A stretch of DNA of 64,000 nucleotides, taken from positions 186,001 to 250,000 of the forward strand of contig CANRKO010000002.1 in NCBI GenBank assembly GCA_947631235.1. The letters run 5' to 3'. The position numbers were made by a program, and so were the translations under genes. Position 1 is the stretch's first letter, and every line of letters starts with the position of its first letter. Positions 4,542-50,516 of the stretch are shown piece by piece. The DNA comes from an uncultured Clostridia bacterium. GTDB taxonomy: Bacteria; Bacillota; Clostridia; UBA1381. The notes below the pieces were generated by a model, which was not told where the DNA came from, made no database searches, and was given only the letters and a program-made list of their open reading frames with translations.

Positions 4542-4559
4542 ACCACCGAATTGAATATA

Positions 4560-4815
4560 AAAAGCGATGAAGGAACAAAGTAGTGCGCGTTTCGCCACAG
4601 AGAGAGCGTAAATTGATGAGCTGGGAGTTTACGCGGTAAGAGCGCGGCGCGAAATTTCATTCCGGAGCCGCGCGGGTGAAACCACAGGCAAGTAGTCCGC
4701 GACGGGTAATGCCGTTATCCATAACAGAGCGCCGAGTAAAATCGGAAGTCGGGTGGTACCGCGGAGTAATATGAGCACACTTCGTCCCAATGCGGGACAG
4801 AGTGTGCTTTTTAGT
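4560..4815 (+). promoter_or_regulatory. T-box leader of pheS (tRNA-Phe sensing)
   Basis: The leader opens with the Stem I signature AGCGATGAAGGAACAAAGTA and carries the highly conserved T-box GGGTGGTACCGCGG at 4751-4764. The likely specifier codon is TTC (4656-4658, followed by A), which is Phe; a second TTC at 4660-4662 is the alternative. A strong terminator follows at 4774-4815. By family rule, uncharged tRNA-Phe pairs with the specifier and the T-box, stabilises the antiterminator and lets pheS be transcribed. Confidence 0.93.
4774..4815 (+). terminator. T-box intrinsic terminator
   Basis: The stem AGCACACTTCGTCCC pairs with GGGACAGAGTGTGCT across a short AATGC loop and is followed by a T-rich run. 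It is the switchable terminator of the T-box. Confidence 0.9.
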
Positions 4816-37552: not shown

Positions 37553-38161
37553 TTATTTAAGTTCCGTAAGCGTTATATCCTCCGAGACCCGTATCTTTTC
37601 GCTCTTTGAAATGTCGAAAGTGTACGTGTGGTCGTACGCGACGCTGAGATTTTGCGATATACGCGCTCTGCCTGCGGAGTTCAGGACGGTAAGCTGACCC
37701 TCGCCCTCAGCCACGTATCTGCCCGCCGGTATTTTGTCGGGGCAGGAGTAACTTTCGCCTGCGCTTAACGAGTATTTTTTGCCCTTTTTCGTTTCGCCCG
37801 TATCGGAGTCGCCCGTCTCGCTTTTCTTCGCCTCAATATCGCGGTCAAGCTGCTCGATTTTGCTTTGAAGAGAGCTGATTTCTTCGGTCAGGCTATCGTG
37901 CGTTTTTTTGTATTCCATGTAGTAGCCGTTTACCGTGTTGCGTGTGCTCAAATCCGCGTCAACCGCGCTGATTTGCTCCTTTATTTTTTCCGACTCGGCT
38001 GTGATTGTCTCCGTATCCGCTTTTATGTCGGTCGTTTCCGTTTCAAGCTGTGCCGCCGCCTCGCGTTTCGTGCTCGCGCCGAACGCGAAAATTCCCGCTG
38101 CGGTTGACGCCGCGGCTGTGAACGCGGCGAGCAATATAATAAACAGTTTTTTCTTTGTCAT
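37553..38161 (-). CDS. Membrane-anchored coiled-coil protein, paralogue B
   Basis: A 202-residue protein of unknown function. The start at 38161 (MTKKKLFIILLAAF) follows GAGGTGG. One N-terminal hydrophobic helix (5-25) is followed by a long heptad-rich coiled coil (about 35-120) and a C-terminal beta-rich module beginning IPAGRYVAEGEGQLTVLNS. The same layout and the same GxY module are found in the gene immediately upstream, so the pair arose by duplication. The helix is probably a membrane anchor with the rest outside. It closes the isoprenoid operon on the minus strand. Confidence 0.75.
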   Translation of the reverse strand: MTKKKLFIILLAAFTAAASTAAGIFAFGASTKREAAAQLETETTDIKADTETITAESEKIKEQISAVDADLSTRNTVNGYYMEYKKTHDSLTEEISSLQSKIEQLDRDIEAKKSETGDSDTGETKKGKKYSLSAGESYSCPDKIPAGRYVAEGEGQLTVLNSAGRARISQNLSVAYDHTYTFDISKSEKIRVSEDITLTELK

Positions 38162-38174
38162 ATGCGCCACCTCG

Positions 38175-38987
38175 TCACCTCGGAACAAATTTCGCGCTGC
38201 CGTCAATCTGCACGCGGTCGTCGTTCCTGAGTTCAAACTCCTCGCCGTCGGGGGTAAGCAGCTTGTTAGCCGTTGATTTTCCGCCGCGTGCCACCGCTAT
38301 CGAGCCGGAACCCGTTACGGTGTACTTGCCGGCGGCAATATCCTTGCCGGCGGTGTAGTAGCCGGAGGGCAGTGTTACAATTCTGCCCGACCCGCCGTCC
38401 TGCGCGGCTGTGAGCGAATCGTATTCGGCTTGTTTCTCTTCCGCTTTCTTTAGAAGTTCGTCTCTCTGTTTTTCAAGTTCCGCGTTGCTCTCGTTTATTT
38501 TGTCGAGACCGCCCTGCGTGGTGCGAAATTCGTCGAGTTCCTCGTTTTTTGATTTAAGCTCGCCGCCGAGACGCTCGTTTTCGGCAACGGCGTCGTCATA
38601 CGCGGCTTTTGCCTCAATATACGCGCCGTTGTTTTCGCGGAGCGAATTTAGGGCGCGTTCCGCCGCGCCGTCGCTTTTCGGAATAAAGAACAATGTCAGA
38701 GCCGCCGCGACAATTACCGCCGCGCTCGCGGCGCACGATATTTTAACAAAATTCGACGTAAGGTCGGACGGCAGTGATTTTATACGCTCCGCCGTCTTAA
38801 ACGCAGCGCCGCGTATTCCCGATGCAAATGAACGCAAAAAATCGGGCGCGGTACGTTTTTTTGTCTCCGCGCTGTCATTTTCCGCAGTGGTTGTATCGGT
38901 TCTGCCGCCGTCGGACGCTTTTACCGTTTCGGCAGCGGCGTCGTCCTCGTCGGTGATTATTATGATATTGTCCTTCTCTCTCTCCAA
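38175..38987 (-). CDS. Membrane-anchored coiled-coil protein, paralogue A
   Basis: A 270-residue protein, probably from TTG 38987 (MEREKDNIIIITDEDD) because AAGAGGTG lies 5 bases upstream; the GTG at 38996 overlaps that site. An acidic N-terminal tail is followed by one transmembrane helix (about 85-107), a coiled coil (about 125-195) and a C-terminal module with SGYYTAGKDIAAGKYTVTG and a DGEEFEL strand. That module resembles the end of its downstream neighbour. No enzyme motif is visible. It starts 16 bases after ispE. Confidence 0.75.
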   Translation of the reverse strand: MEREKDNIIIITDEDDAAAETVKASDGGRTDTTTAENDSAETKKRTAPDFLRSFASGIRGAAFKTAERIKSLPSDLTSNFVKISCAASAAVIVAAALTLFFIPKSDGAAERALNSLRENNGAYIEAKAAYDDAVAENERLGGELKSKNEELDEFRTTQGGLDKINESNAELEKQRDELLKKAEEKQAEYDSLTAAQDGGSGRIVTLPSGYYTAGKDIAAGKYTVTGSGSIAVARGGKSTANKLLTPDGEEFELRNDDRVQIDGSAKFVPR

Positions 38988-39003
38988 AAGGAACACCTCT
39001 TAT

Positions 39004-39885
39004 TCAGTTCATTATACTCGTCAGGTACACGTCGCGGAACTGCATCGCAAAGCTGTCCGCGCTCCTTTTCGCCTTGGCGTAGTCGTCGAATATCCCGAAT
39101 ACCGTCGGCCCGCTGCCGCTCATTACCGCGCCGAGCGCGCCGTTCATTATCATCTTCTTTTTTATGCCGCCGACGACTGGATGCAGTTTTACCGTGACGC
39201 TTTCCATGACGTTTGAAAGTTTATCCGCGACCGCGCCGACACTGCCCGACTTAATCGCGCGTATCATGCCGTCCGTGTCGGGGCGCGTCATGTCCTCCGC
39301 GCCGTCGATCTGCTCGTACACCGCTGCCGTCGAAACGCTGACGGGCGGTTTTACGAGAAGAATATGCGCCTTCGGGGCAGGGGGGAGAGGCGTTAAAATT
39401 TCGCCTATACCCTCCGCAAGCTGCGTACCGCCGGTAAAGCAGTACGCCACGTCCGCGCCGAGCGACGCTCCGGCTTGGATTATTTCCTCGCGGCTTAACG
39501 GACAGCCGTAGAGCATATTGAGCGCGCAAAGCACGGCGGCGCAGTTGCCGCTGCCGCCCGCGAGACCCGCAGCCACGGGGATATTCTTATGTATTATTAT
39601 TTTCGCGCCGCTGCGTATCGAAGTGAGCGAGTAAAAAAGCTCCGCAGCCCTGTACGCGAGGTTTTTATTGTTTGTCGGCAGATACTTCAGATTTGTCGAA
39701 ACGGATATTTCGCCGTCGGTTTTGTCGATTATGAGCAAATCAAACAGCGACACCGTCTGCATAATCATCTTTATATCGTGGTAGCCGTCCGCACGCCTTG
39801 ACAGAACGTCGAGCGTGAGGTTGATCTTCGCGTACGACCTTGCTATGGCGCGTCTGCCGGTTATTACTATGTCGTCCGAAAGCAT
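39004..39885 (-). CDS. ispE: 4-diphosphocytidyl-2-C-methyl-D-erythritol kinase
   Basis: GHMP kinase of the non-mevalonate isoprenoid pathway. The start at 39885 (MLSDDIVITGRR) follows AAGGAGTGG. The 293 residues show ARSYAKINLTLDVL near the N-terminus, the ATP loop PVAAGLAGGSGNCAAVL and the C-terminal GAVMSGSGPTVFGIF. It lies 13 bases after tlyA in the order oapA-dxs-tlyA-ispE, so two pathway enzymes share the unit. Confidence 0.96.
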   Translation of the reverse strand: MLSDDIVITGRRAIARSYAKINLTLDVLSRRADGYHDIKMIMQTVSLFDLLIIDKTDGEISVSTNLKYLPTNNKNLAYRAAELFYSLTSIRSGAKIIIHKNIPVAAGLAGGSGNCAAVLCALNMLYGCPLSREEIIQAGASLGADVAYCFTGGTQLAEGIGEILTPLPPAPKAHILLVKPPVSVSTAAVYEQIDGAEDMTRPDTDGMIRAIKSGSVGAVADKLSNVMESVTVKLHPVVGGIKKKMIMNGALGAVMSGSGPTVFGIFDDYAKAKRSADSFAMQFRDVYLTSIMN

Positions 39886-39898
39886 ATTTACCACTCCT

Positions 39899-40699
39899 TT
39901 ACAACACACTGTGCGACTCGTCCGCGACGCGGCGTATCACCTCGTCCGTTATACTATCCTCACATTCGCTCTTTTTGAAATACGCGAGGTACTCTATATT
40001 TCCCTCAGGTCCCTTCACGGGCGAAAATGACAGCCCCGCTGCGTGAAGGTCAATGCTCCGCGCAAAATTGAGCACGTTTTTTATGACCTCGTAATGGACT
40101 TTAATATCCCTAACAACGCCTTTTTTGCCGACCTGTTCGCGCCCCGCCTCAAACTGCGGCTTTATGAGCGCGACTATTTCGCCGTCGTCCGCGAGCAGAT
40201 TTTTCGCCACGGGCAGTACAAGACGGAGCGAAATAAACGACACGTCGATCGACGCGAAATCTATCTTCTCGCCGACGTCCTCCAGTGTGACGTAGCGTAT
40301 GTTCGTGCGCTCCATGTTCACGACGCGCTCGTCCGAACGCAGCTTCCACGCGAACTGACCGTACCCCACATCGACCGCGAACACCTTTTTAGCGCCGTTT
40401 TGCAGCATACAGTCCGTAAAACCGCCCGTTGACGCACCTATGTCCATCGTCACCTTGCCTTCAAGCGACACGGGGAACACACTGAGAGCCTTTTCGAGCT
40501 TTAACCCGCCTCGGCTTACGTATTTGAGCGTTTCGCCGCGAACCTCGGGCGTGACGCGCTCGTCCACCTGCTGACCCGCCTTGTCGCACTTCTGGTTGTC
40601 TATATAAACCTGTCCAGCCATTATGAGCGCCTTCGCGCGCTCGCGGCTCTGCGCCAGCCCCTTGTCCACAAGGAGCGCGTCAAGCCTTACCTTAGCCAT
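39899..40699 (-). CDS. tlyA: TlyA-family rRNA 2'-O-methyltransferase
   Basis: A 266-residue S4-plus-FtsJ-fold protein of the TlyA/YqxC family. In mycobacteria TlyA methylates 16S C1409 and 23S C1920 and confers capreomycin sensitivity. The S4 domain is MAKVRLDALLVDKGLAQSRE through VYIDNQ, and the SAM site is MDIGASTGGFTDCML. Earlier hemolysin annotations of this family are unsupported. It overlaps dxs by 8 bases, so translation is likely coupled. tlyA after dxs is the usual Firmicutes order. Confidence 0.93.
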   Translation of the reverse strand: MAKVRLDALLVDKGLAQSRERAKALIMAGQVYIDNQKCDKAGQQVDERVTPEVRGETLKYVSRGGLKLEKALSVFPVSLEGKVTMDIGASTGGFTDCMLQNGAKKVFAVDVGYGQFAWKLRSDERVVNMERTNIRYVTLEDVGEKIDFASIDVSFISLRLVLPVAKNLLADDGEIVALIKPQFEAGREQVGKKGVVRDIKVHYEVIKNVLNFARSIDLHAAGLSFSPVKGPEGNIEYLAYFKKSECEDSITDEVIRRVADESHSVL

Positions 40700-42557
40700 T
40701 ATTATTTTCCTCTCGCATTGAATTATTCATGTATCCGACTATCGCCGCCGCGTCACAGCCGCAGTACGCGTCAAGCTCGCTGACCGTGCCGTGCGGTATC
40801 GGACTGTCGGGGAACGCGAATATTTTAAGCGTACACTTTATACCGCGCTCGGCGATAAGCGACGCAATCATACTGCCCATACCGCCGATTTTCACGTTGT
40901 CCTCAATCGTTATCACATGACCCGTCTTGACAGCCGACGCGATAACAGTCTCGCCGTCAAGCGGCTTTATCGTCGGCATCGCGAGTATTTCGACCGACCT
41001 TCCCGCGACCGCGGCGACCTCCTCCGCGCGTTTTACCATTCTGCCCGTCGCGACTATCGTAACATCCGTACCCTCGCGTATAAGCTGCGCCTTGCCGAGC
41101 GTGAACGTGCGCGGCACGTTTTCAGCCTCGCACCCGCCGCGAGGATAGCGTATAGCTATGGGCGCGTCGAAGCGGTTGATTGCGAAGTCGAGCATTTCCT
41201 CAAGCTGGTCGAGCGTCGCGGGCGACAGGAGCGTCATGTTGGGCATATGCGTGAGGTAGGAAATATCGTAAACGCCCTGGTGCGTCTCGCCGTCCGCGCC
41301 GACAATGCCCGCGCGGTCAATGGGAAACACGACGTGGAGATTTTGCAGACAAACGTCGTGCAGCGTCTGGTCGTACGCGCGCTGCAAAAATGACGAGTAC
41401 AGAGGTATTACGGGAATGTACCCCGCCGCCGCGAGACCTGCCGACAGCGTTACGCCGTGCTGCTCGGCTATACCCACGTCGAAAAAGCGGTTTTTGTTTT
41501 TCTTCACAAATTCGTCAAGACCCGTGCCGTTCGGCATCGCACCCGTGATAGCGACCACCTTCGGATTTTTTTCGGCTATGCGCACCATAGCCGCGCCGAA
41601 ACGGTCGCTGTACGTTTCGCCCGACTTTGCCGTTTCGCCCGTCTCTTTGTCGAACGGCGAAATGCCGTGGAACTTCTGCGGGTTGCTTTCGGCGGGAGCG
41701 TAGCCCTTGCCCTTCTTCGTCTGAACGTGTATAAACACGGGCTTTTTCTCGCTTTTCACGTAGTCGAAACAGCTTATGAGAGCCTCGATGTCGTGACCGT
41801 CCACAGGTCCCATGTACGTAAAGCCCAAATCGTCGAACATCGTCGTCGGTATTACGAGACGGCGGAAAAACCGCTTTACCTTTTTTATAACCGTCGCTAT
41901 GCCCTTGCCGACGAGCGGGATTTTATTCAGTATCCTTTCAACGATAACCTTTGAATGGAAGTACGCCGGCGACATACGCAGCTTGCGCAGATGCGTCGAT
42001 ACCGCGCCGACGTTTCGGGCTATGGACATGGCGTTGTCGTTTAATATAAGTATTAAGGGCGTGCGCGAGTGACCCGCGTCGTTCATCGCCTCGTACATCA
42101 TGCCGCCTGTGAGCGCGCCGTCGCCGAACACGGAAATGACGTTGTAATCATCGCCGTCAAGGTCGCGCGCCCGCGCTATGCCGAGAGCCGCGCTTATCGA
42201 GGTGGAGCTGTGACCGGTGTCAAACGCGTCGCAGCCGCTCTCGCCGCGTTTCGGGAACCCTGAAAGACCGCCGAATTGGCGGAGCGTATCGAACTTGTCC
42301 TTTCTGCCGGTCAGAATTTTGTGGACGTACGACTGATGCCCCACGTCGAATATTATTTTATCTTTGGGAACGTCAAAAACAGTGTGGAGCGCGACGGTAA
42401 GTTCCACGACGCCGAGATTCGACGCGAGGTGGCCGCCCGTTTTTGACACACTGTCAACAAGAAACTCCCGAATTTCGGCGCACAGCGCGTTAAGCTCGGG
42501 AATTGTGAGGGTTTTTAAGTTTTCCGGCGATTGGATTTTGTCTAATAACTTGTACAT
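40692..42557 (-). CDS. dxs: 1-deoxy-D-xylulose-5-phosphate synthase
   Basis: Thiamine-diphosphate enzyme joining pyruvate and glyceraldehyde-3-phosphate, first step of the non-mevalonate pathway. The 621 residues are full length. Visible are DVGHQSYVHKILTGRKD, the TPP motif GDGALTGGMMYEAMNDAG, and the central EQHGVTLSAGLAA with the catalytic Glu. It starts 3 bases after oapA, so coupling is likely. Together with ispE it shows that the organism makes isoprenoids by the MEP route. Confidence 0.97.
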   Translation of the reverse strand: MYKLLDKIQSPENLKTLTIPELNALCAEIREFLVDSVSKTGGHLASNLGVVELTVALHTVFDVPKDKIIFDVGHQSYVHKILTGRKDKFDTLRQFGGLSGFPKRGESGCDAFDTGHSSTSISAALGIARARDLDGDDYNVISVFGDGALTGGMMYEAMNDAGHSRTPLILILNDNAMSIARNVGAVSTHLRKLRMSPAYFHSKVIVERILNKIPLVGKGIATVIKKVKRFFRRLVIPTTMFDDLGFTYMGPVDGHDIEALISCFDYVKSEKKPVFIHVQTKKGKGYAPAESNPQKFHGISPFDKETGETAKSGETYSDRFGAAMVRIAEKNPKVVAITGAMPNGTGLDEFVKKNKNRFFDVGIAEQHGVTLSAGLAAAGYIPVIPLYSSFLQRAYDQTLHDVCLQNLHVVFPIDRAGIVGADGETHQGVYDISYLTHMPNMTLLSPATLDQLEEMLDFAINRFDAPIAIRYPRGGCEAENVPRTFTLGKAQLIREGTDVTIVATGRMVKRAEEVAAVAGRSVEILAMPTIKPLDGETVIASAVKTGHVITIEDNVKIGGMGSMIASLIAERGIKCTLKIFAFPDSPIPHGTVSELDAYCGCDAAAIVGYMNNSMREENNNG

Positions 42558-42560
42558 AGC

Positions 42561-43151
42561 TTATTTTCTCAGGAAATGCCTGCAAAAGTACATTATCTTT
42601 CCGACGGCGAACACAATCGAGTTGCCGTTCTGCATTGAAACGCCCTTTGACATGGCTTTTCCGCCTATCGTGAGAGCGCCGACGATACCTGTAAGGATAA
42701 GGCTCGGCAGTATTCCCGTCAGCTTAAACACGCTTATAAGCTCGCTTACTATAAGCGTCGTCGTCGCACCGGAAATAATACCCGCGATGTCGCCAATTAC
42801 GTCGCAGCACATATTCGCGAGCTGCGGAGCGTGGCGTATTACCGAAATGCTTTCCTTCGCGCCCTTTACCTTCCTTGCCGCGAGCGAGTGAAACGGATGT
42901 TCCTCCGCGTTCTGAACCGCCGTGCCTATCATGTCGAAGAAGATGTTTACCGCGATTATGACAAACAGCAGCACAAAAGCGAAAAACAGCGTCAATGACT
43001 GCATGAGCACGGACGTTATGAAGCTGAAGAACACCGAAAGCACAAATGACAGTATAAGCACCGTCACCGTCCACTTATGCGACACGGTCACGTTGATTTT
43101 GGGCTGCGGAACACTGAATTTTTTTCGTTTCGGTATGTCGGACTTGTCCAA
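42561..43151 (-). CDS. oapA: OapA-like OLE-RNA-associated membrane protein
   Basis: A 196-residue membrane protein starting at TTG 43151, with AAAGGAGAG upstream. A basic N-terminus (DIPKRKKFSVPQPK) precedes two closely spaced helices (about 25-75). A short cytoplasmic stretch (EEHPFHSLAARKVKGAKES) follows, then two or three more hydrophobic segments. Position is the strongest evidence: it lies directly between the large structured RNA and dxs, exactly where OapA, the protein that carries OLE RNA to the membrane, is found in other Firmicutes. Some annotations call such proteins CorB-like. I infer the identity from context, size and topology. Confidence 0.8.
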   Translation of the reverse strand: MDKSDIPKRKKFSVPQPKINVTVSHKWTVTVLILSFVLSVFFSFITSVLMQSLTLFFAFVLLFVIIAVNIFFDMIGTAVQNAEEHPFHSLAARKVKGAKESISVIRHAPQLANMCCDVIGDIAGIISGATTTLIVSELISVFKLTGILPSLILTGIVGALTIGGKAMSKGVSMQNGNSIVFAVGKIMYFCRHFLRK

Positions 43152-43194
43152 TTTGTTTTCTCTCCTTTATTTTAAAACCGCACCCTGAGGCGTT

Positions 43195-43853
43195 GGTAAC
43201 ATAATAAAAATAGGGTAGTGAACGAAGTAAAGTTTGCGGCTTAGGTCCGGCAGGTTTTCCCGTCGGTCAGCTTCCTCGTCGCCGAGGGAGCGGTTTCCCA
43301 TTAAAGACCGACACCTATACGCCTTTCGGCGTACCGAGTAGCCGGATCGCCACTGAGTCCGCACTGCAATCCTCCGTTCACCCTTTTACGACAGCCTAGA
43401 GGTTTTCCCATACAGCCAAAGCCTTCCGTATCCTCTTTTGCAGAGCATGGTTTCAGCGCGCGATTCCCCTTGTGCCCGATAGGCGCCAAAGTAGGCGAAA
43501 GGTTCTGTTCGCGCATCCGCCACGTCCACTCAAGGCTGGCTACGCTGCCCACAGCCCTCGCGCGGTCTCCTTATGAGAGATACGCGCTACTGACCGCAAA
43601 ACAGGTTTTCCCCTGAGCCGTAACAGCTTACTCCCTTAGGGGGAATGGGCTGCCACAGTCACAGGCCTCCACGGAAAAGGGGGAAGGGTTACTATGCCGT
43701 TAGCAACCGCCCCTAAACCTTAACTCCCAGCATCAGCCCCGAACTGGGCGTTCAAAGCAAAACACCAGAAACTTCATCGATGTGCCATTTGGCGGATTTT
43801 TAGGCCCGCTTTCCGAAAAGCCGTACTGACTAGGATACTGCACCGCTATTACA
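43195..43853 (-). ncRNA. OLE RNA (ornate large extremophilic RNA) candidate
   Basis: About 650 bases with no credible gene, read from a consensus promoter on the minus strand and ending just before oapA. The composition is unlike a coding gene but full of short complementary arms. Examples are CGTACCGAAAGGCGTA-type hairpins, a GGGGAAAACC motif used twice, and a CTGATGCTGGGAG segment that could be a kink-turn. Known OLE RNAs are about 600 bases and sit beside oapA and dxs-type isoprenoid genes in anaerobic or extremophilic Firmicutes, and both neighbours are present here. I could not align it to the Rfam model from memory, so the call rests on size, structure and synteny. Ends are approximate. 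Confidence 0.8.
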
Positions 43854-43860
43854 ATTTATT

Positions 43861-43889
43861 ATCTTATCATACTTAAAGCAAAAAGTCAA
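43861..43889 (-). promoter_or_regulatory. Promoter of the OLE RNA / isoprenoid operon
   Basis: On the minus strand TTGACT, 17-bp spacer, TAAGAT. Expected start of transcription is near 43853, just before the structured region. Confidence 0.8.
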
Positions 43890-44000: not shown

Positions 44001-45068
<1,068 letters not shown>

Positions 45069-49778: not shown

Positions 49779-49890
49779 ATCAGAGTAGGTGTATGCGCGT
49801 AAAGTGCGGAACGAACGGGGAGTTGTCGTTCCGACGAAAAGCCGTCCGCGTAAGCGGGGGCTTGCGGTGCGTATGCCGCATCCCGCTGAA
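49779..49890 (+). promoter_or_regulatory. Tetrahydrofolate (THF-I) riboswitch
   Basis: The segment follows the THF-I consensus in order: AGAGTAGGTG, then GCGTAAAGTG, a GGAACGA...TCGTTCC hairpin, GGGGAGTTGTCG, ACGAAAAGCC, then GCGGTGCGTATGCCGCATCC ending in CGCT, which pairs with the AGAGTAG end. It is immediately upstream of a FolT transporter gene, the classical target. A GGCAA...TTGCC hairpin with T-runs (about 49910-49938) may be the expression platform. Folate excess should lower folT expression by family precedent. Confidence 0.92.
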
Positions 49891-49958: not shown

Positions 49959-50516
49959 ATGCTTAAAACGCTTGAAAACTTCAGACAATCGGCGCGTAAC
50001 CTCACAAATACGCGCCACCTTGCGCTCGCGGGCATGCTGCTCGCGATGCACGCGGTACTGGGCGTGTTCAAAATCCCGCTTTTTACGCCCGACAACCGCA
50101 TAACCTTCACATTCGCGGCGACAGCTGCGGCGGGTATAACGCTGGGACCCGTTCCCGCGATGCTCGTCGGGGGACTGGGCGACATACTCGGCTACCTTTT
50201 AAACCCGGGCGGCGGCGCGTACTTTTTCGGCTTTACTGTATCTGCCGCGCTCGGCGGACTCGTTCACGGCGTGCTTTTGTACAAAGCCGAGCCGAAATAC
50301 GCGTTTTTGCGCGTCGTAATCGCGGAGCTTATTATAACTTTATTCATAAATATAATGCTCAATACCTATTGGCTGTCGGTTCTGTACGCGAAGGCGTTCG
50401 CCGTTTTCTCGGCGGCGCGTATCATTAAGAATTTCGCGGCTTTTCCGATACACATACTGATAGTGTTCGCGCTCTACGAGCTTATATATCGCACAAATTT
50501 ATCAAAAAAACTGTAA
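49959..50516 (+). CDS. folT: Folate ECF transporter S component
   Basis: A 185-residue membrane protein that binds folate and works with the shared EcfA-A'-T module. Six hydrophobic segments are visible. The family marks are an N-terminal ALAGMLLAMHAVLGVF helix, IPLFTPDNRITFTF, the PVPAMLVGGLGDILGYLLNP loop and FPIHILIVFALYELIYR near the end. AGAGGTG precedes the ATG. The THF riboswitch upstream supports folate as the substrate. Confidence 0.93.
   Translation: MLKTLENFRQSARNLTNTRHLALAGMLLAMHAVLGVFKIPLFTPDNRITFTFAATAAAGITLGPVPAMLVGGLGDILGYLLNPGGGAYFFGFTVSAALGGLVHGVLLYKAEPKYAFLRVVIAELIITLFINIMLNTYWLSVLYAKAFAVFSAARIIKNFAAFPIHILIVFALYELIYRTNLSKKL

Follow-up and report, generated by a model that had tools for sequence, protein, structure and literature searches.

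A full-length OLE RNA gene behind a promoter-like site of its own precedes oapA and isoprenoid genes in an uncultured Clostridia bacterium

The window, the whole stretch of 64,000 nucleotides that was analysed, carries on its minus strand an OLE RNA followed by oapA, dxs, tlyA and ispE. A scan of the whole window with Rfam 15 placed OLE (RF01071) at 43862-43196 on the minus strand (667 bases, E 1.5e-117), with model positions 1-616 of 616 aligned and a score of 411.9 bits against a gathering score of 50. Hence, the block of about 650 gene-free bases that a first-pass annotation had taken for an OLE-type RNA is indeed OLE, and the covariance-model comparison that it had proposed gave a significant match. 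Since the start of the Rfam match overlaps the -10 hexamer of the upstream promoter-like site, the true 5′ end of OLE probably lies near 43854 rather than at 43862. On the same strand follow the frame of a 196-residue membrane protein, with a TTG start behind AGGAG, assigned to OLE-associated membrane protein A (oapA, 42561..43151), then dxs (1-deoxy-D-xylulose-5-phosphate synthase, 40692..42557; TIGR00204, 754.4 bits), a tlyA-family rRNA methyltransferase gene (39899..40699; TIGR00478, 282.8 bits) and ispE (CDP-ME kinase, 39004..39909; TIGR00154, 239.5 bits). Both the membrane-protein frame and the isoprenoid setting had been read in the same way from the sequence. prfA, divergent from OLE, starts at 44001. 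Downstream of ispE, at 37553-38996 on the minus strand, lie two frames that possibly belong to the same operon; their matches are coiled-coil-like, and none to a family is above cut-off.

Upstream of OLE, a consensus scan found TTGACT and TAAGAT, 17 bp apart and with an extended -10 (TG), at 43861..43889 on the minus strand, which is the promoter named in the first-pass annotation. Alone, this match is weak: over 5.2 kb, the scan gave 8 consensus matches including this one, where shuffles would give 3.3. It does recur: TTGACTTTT and a -10-like hexamer, read by eye, precede OLE in 15/15 non-duplicate loci from genera g1 and g6 and the named kin with upstream sequence. In three loci from the family's other genera (L011, L013 and L021), the -35 reads TTGACA or TTTACA, again by eye, and not TTGACTTTT. 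Judged from sequence, the promoter-like site is conserved in the genus. The gene order oapA-dxs-tlyA-ispE is found in 14 of the 15 named contigs with OapA, L040 being cut inside ispE, and the remaining contig (L048) ends inside dxs. The titles of these 15 contigs are mostly those of Clostridia MAGs, several of them marked Lapin (taken to mean rabbit) and one naming goat duodenum. The upstream neighbour of OLE varies: it is prfA in L036-L040, while L044 has proB-proA and L045 a divergent nusB-xseA-ispA cluster (both named by eye). Given the promoter and the divergent neighbours, we infer that OLE heads its operon in the window's clade.

A terminator scan of the 44 bases between the OLE match and oapA returned no terminator-like site on the minus strand, in line with what had been noted earlier. 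By eye, a residual stem between OLE and oapA (GCCUCA/UGCGGU) has a mismatch in the window and is paired in L036-L039, and hairpins followed by T runs stand between the two genes in L027, L029 and L022; partial termination may occur there in relatives. Polycistronic OLE transcription has been reported for Halalkalibacterium halodurans (PMC12265935), and by analogy the OLE transcript of the window would read through into dxs-ispE.

The product of the 42561-43151 frame matches Pfam CNNM with 26.3 bits (E 6.9e-6; cut-off 28.4), or 29.0 bits in a six-frame search, and no other Pfam domain was found in this frame. CNNM matches 11 of 24 aligned OapA members at E 0.01, and weak CNNM similarity has been reported for OapA (PMC11332333). 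The AlphaFold model (13 rows) is poor, with a mean pLDDT of 54.7, and a PDB sequence search gave nothing useful (best E 0.13). As for position, oapA is the gene directly downstream of OLE in 28 of the 30 loci from relatives, the exceptions being L016, which ends at a contig edge, and L007, where a glycosyltransferase gene is found instead (by eye); it also lies at most 1.5 kb from OLE in all of the best-scoring 30 of 289 loci phylum-wide. Of 61 related genomes, 44 have OLE and 42 have OapA, with both in 42, neither in 17 and OapA only in none; the two genomes with OLE only (G055 and G060) have it at contig ends. The agreement, 59/61, has a Fisher P of 3e-13 for genomes that are related to one another. 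Based on the weak CNNM similarity, the place after OLE and the co-occurrence, the frame very probably encodes OapA, as the first-pass annotation had suggested. Like known OapA, it would be a short membrane-type protein right after OLE with weak similarity to the CNNM domain, and it differs, in a comparison confined to the loci examined, by its predicted TTG start. In G037, a full OLE (L007, G037:C6) lies without adjacent oapA, and the oapA of that genome is on another contig (G037:C21:82584-83096). Because the two genes occupy separate contigs there, the OLE-oapA linkage is not obligatory.

The predicted start of oapA is TTG in 42/44 loci of the order and in 32/34 after removal of duplicates, L009 having ATG and L017 GTG. 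A second rule, based on the Shine-Dalgarno sequence, gave TTG in 29/30 non-duplicate loci; it dropped 4 of the 44 loci (L002, L005, L009 and L018), and both ratios are given since L009, with its predicted ATG, is among those lost. The neighbouring genes have predicted ATG starts in 48/48 cases (dxs 24, tlyA 6, ispE 6, prfA 6, sdr 6). In the best-scoring 30 of 289 loci phylum-wide, TTG was predicted 11 times, ATG 18 times and GTG once. The predicted TTG start is thus held in the order but not universal, a small new observation; in the literature, judged by titles, we found no OLE paper on the oapA start codon. bS21 acts in translation initiation. It also binds OLE (PMC12054373), and initiation at UUG could for these two reasons respond to OLE-held bS21, a selected UUG start keeping oapA translation low to match the co-transcribed RNA. 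We regard this reading as doubtful; if true, it would be an undescribed feedback from OLE onto its own partner OapA.

The fold of the RNA was assessed in an alignment of 35 OLE sequences (the window, 4 named kin and 30 other relatives, several of them mutually close). RNAalifold gave 150 consensus pairs, 69 of which have both sides changed with the pair kept in at least one sequence. The secondary structure is conserved and supported by covariation. The segment GGCACAUCGAUGAAG (43772..43786, minus strand), with 13 of 15 positions invariant in the alignment, is taken as P4a / J4a/5 and would then fall in the region where OapA and OapC contacts have been reported (PMC12265935, PMC9723947). In the same manner, a hairpin located by the Rfam match and the alignment (43271..43290, minus strand), whose loop CGGCGACG is kept in the 35 sequences, is taken as P13, the region of the reported OapB site (PMC12265935, PMC9723947).

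The 5′ and 3′ ends of the RNA come together in a terminal helix, in which duplex folding pairs AAUAG, a bulged C and GGU (43842..43850, minus strand) with ACCCUAUU (43209..43216, minus strand). For 37 distinct end pairs, matched ends have a mean of -12.1 kcal/mol as compared to -7.3 kcal/mol for mismatched ones, and a mean as low as the matched one arose in 0/20,000 permutations (P 5e-5, a figure that ignores kinship among the sequences). This folding covered 52 loci, with 24 of the 76 left out because the landmark patterns failed in them. All 52 gave a pairing (-5.7 to -24.9 kcal/mol), in a shifted register in L024 and L050; duplex folding always draws one, and the permutation serves as the control. 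We take the terminal helix for P1, named as part of domain 2 in PMC12265935. This covarying helix is missing from the RF01071 match line, where both termini of OLE stand unpaired.

The 3′ strand of the terminal helix might also pair with the Shine-Dalgarno sequence of oapA, in which case folding of OLE would switch oapA translation on. Some loci (e.g. L002-L005, L010 and L017) do show strong complementarity between tail and ribosome-binding site, at -8.2 to -13.6 kcal/mol. However, over the 45 of 63 loci that were readable, matched tails and ribosome-binding sites average -6.7 kcal/mol against -6.4 kcal/mol for mismatched ones, giving a permutation P of 0.16, and the window itself reaches just -4.2 kcal/mol. 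Such a strand exchange is not supported by these values and is highly unlikely.

In the window's genome, oapB is flanked by frames that we take to be map and infA, the position that oapB also has in Bacillus. The frames after oapC are presumably rpsL and rpsG. OapB (87 aa, L052:4841-5104) matches PDB 7k9b, ‘OLE-associated protein B’, with E 5e-14, and OapC, an 80-aa L7Ae protein (L032:1495-1737), matches YbxF (4lck) with E 2e-11; bS21 is also encoded in the assembly (87.7 bits). By sequence match, then, the genome encodes OapB, OapC/YbxF and bS21, partners of the OLE RNP, the first two being the genes for which the first-pass annotation had advised a search outside the window.

The full RF01071 model aligns with the window without a large deletion, and insertions are located in the P7-P9 region. 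Because the putative P13 hairpin is kept and P7-P9 is not shortened as compared to the Rfam consensus, the window OLE is of the full-length type described by Fernando and Breaker 2024 (PMC11332333), and not variant 1 or 2, under our putative placement of the helix names. In L015, L017 and L018, a large additional insertion separates the P7 region of OLE from the P9 region (alignment columns 301-400). The score of 411.9 bits is below that of full-length matches in the order's other families (469.5-513.9 bits), and the titles of the relatives' records point to gut-type metagenomes, both of which would fit a degenerate, non-working relic of the variant 1 or 2 type. Against such decay, nothing large has been deleted relative to the Rfam consensus, the conserved nucleotides and the terminal helix are retained, promoter and oapA are conserved, and the genome has both OapB and OapC, which PMC11332333 describes as mostly absent from the variant clades; we therefore reject this reading as very improbable. 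The readings of the block as a different large RNA (RNase P, group II intron, ROOL or GOLLD) or as a long oapA-dxs 5′ leader of the riboswitch kind, which its size and its place upstream of a metabolic operon would suit, are refuted to near certainty by the full-length OLE match, and the better match to another family that would have counted against OLE in the first-pass annotation was not seen, no other Rfam family overlapping 43862-43196 in the scan of both strands.

The stretch is therefore a genuine and complete OLE RNA, a further member of a well-described family. With known full-length OLE RNA (RF01071, PMC11332333) it shares sequence, secondary structure, size, adjacency to oapA and the isoprenoid genes, and also the presence of OapB, OapC and bS21 genes in a genome in which no CorC/HlyC protein was found. 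It differs in leading its unit behind a promoter-like site of its own, divergent from prfA (as also in L036-L040), and in its predicted L9.3 palindrome, GGCGCC and not GGCC, for which GAUC and AGCU are the switches given in PMC12286853. OLE RNA is not rare: we found it in 289 of 398 genomes sampled across the phylum, and 2,822 Bacillota matches are given in PMC11332333.

With regard to Mg2+ exporters of the MpfA type, no CorC_HlyC domain was detected in the window's assembly, which is 86.34% complete, and the sole CNNM match in this genome is OapA itself. Among the 61 relatives, CorC_HlyC occurs in 6 of 44 genomes with OLE and in 16 of 17 genomes without it (Fisher P 5.5e-9, only a guide since the genomes are related). 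The exclusion is also seen inside genus g18, where G047, G053 and G059 have CorC_HlyC without OLE and the other members have OLE without CorC_HlyC. PF03471 can occur in other transporters; the frames that hold 29 of the 31 CorC_HlyC matches measure 410-463 aa, which is compatible with MpfA. As compared to MpfA / CorC-type Mg2+ exporters, OapA would share the distant CNNM relation but is without the CBS/CorC part, and among the 61 relatives the distribution of the CorC-type proteins is the opposite of that of OLE. An anticorrelation of OLE with MpfA-type proteins has been reported for Bacillota (PMC11332333), and the one observed here repeats that pattern within one order.

Two copies of L9.3 form a kissing loop, the tetranucleotide of which switches among the palindromes GGCC, GAUC and AGCU (PMC12286853). 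In the window, a loop search in the isolated P9 arm put a self-complementary GGCGCC in the apical loop (L9.3, 43482..43487, minus strand), as a predicted RNA-RNA kissing contact. In this isolated arm, the open loop lies 3.1 kcal/mol above the minimum-energy fold, the deepest loop of which holds no palindrome, so the use of GGCGCC as the dimer contact is a prediction. The search favours palindromes, opening up to 5 kcal/mol and keeping loops that hold one, which biases its comparison with shuffles. With it, 62/62 arms accommodated a palindrome at the P9 apex; they were read from 65 loci, three of which (L062, L077 and L082) have no P9 by pattern. By the same search, the L9.3 loop holds GGCC in 28 of 35 loci of the order. 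GGCGCC is found in the window and in L036, L037 and L039, AGCGCU in L027 and L029, and UGCGCA in L044. These GCGC cores lie beyond GGCC, GAUC and AGCU, the tetranucleotides named in PMC12286853.

An unconstrained run considered the deepest minimum-energy loop of 57 distinct arms, 49 of which have loops of at least 4 nt. Palindromes of at least 4 occurred in 46/49 (22.2 expected, largest shuffle 33) and of at least 6 in 13 (1.3 expected, largest shuffle 7). In an earlier run on 34 distinct arms, taking the most central minimum-energy loop, extended by two bases per side, palindromes of at least 4 were found in 25/34, with 15.2 expected and 26 as the largest of 1000 shuffles, not beyond chance, and palindromes of at least 6 in 7/34 (3.8 expected, largest shuffle 10). 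All these runs treat related sequences as independent.

Overall, we are highly confident that the window holds a full-length OLE gene that leads the oapA-dxs-tlyA-ispE unit and has a sigma-70-type promoter of its own. This promoter would drive OLE as the leader of the polycistronic transcript, from which, by analogy with Halalkalibacterium halodurans and cryo-EM work, the RNA would be cut with processing of its 3′ end. As in other species, OLE could then fold and dimerise via the L9.3 kissing loop, here GGCGCC, and would be tethered to the membrane by OapA while carrying OapB, OapC and bS21. The particle, again by analogy with other species, may support stress and Mg2+ tolerance, and it may replace an MpfA-type exporter, not found in the window's assembly. 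Few structured RNAs in bacteria are as large as OLE or, in any species, as poorly understood in their biochemical act; for such an RNA, each complete and well-placed example aids comparative work. The OLE gene of the window is in itself unsurprising, a good further example of a known family. The order offers a clean natural comparison, as close relatives have either OLE with OapA or a CorC-type protein, rarely both, which mirrors, within one order, the mutual replacement proposed in the literature.

Elsewhere in the window, the other matches at the Rfam gathering level are a T-box at 4558-4792 and a THF riboswitch at 49779-49890, both on the plus strand. The THF riboswitch precedes a membrane-type frame at 49959 that, by eye, is folate-transporter-like.
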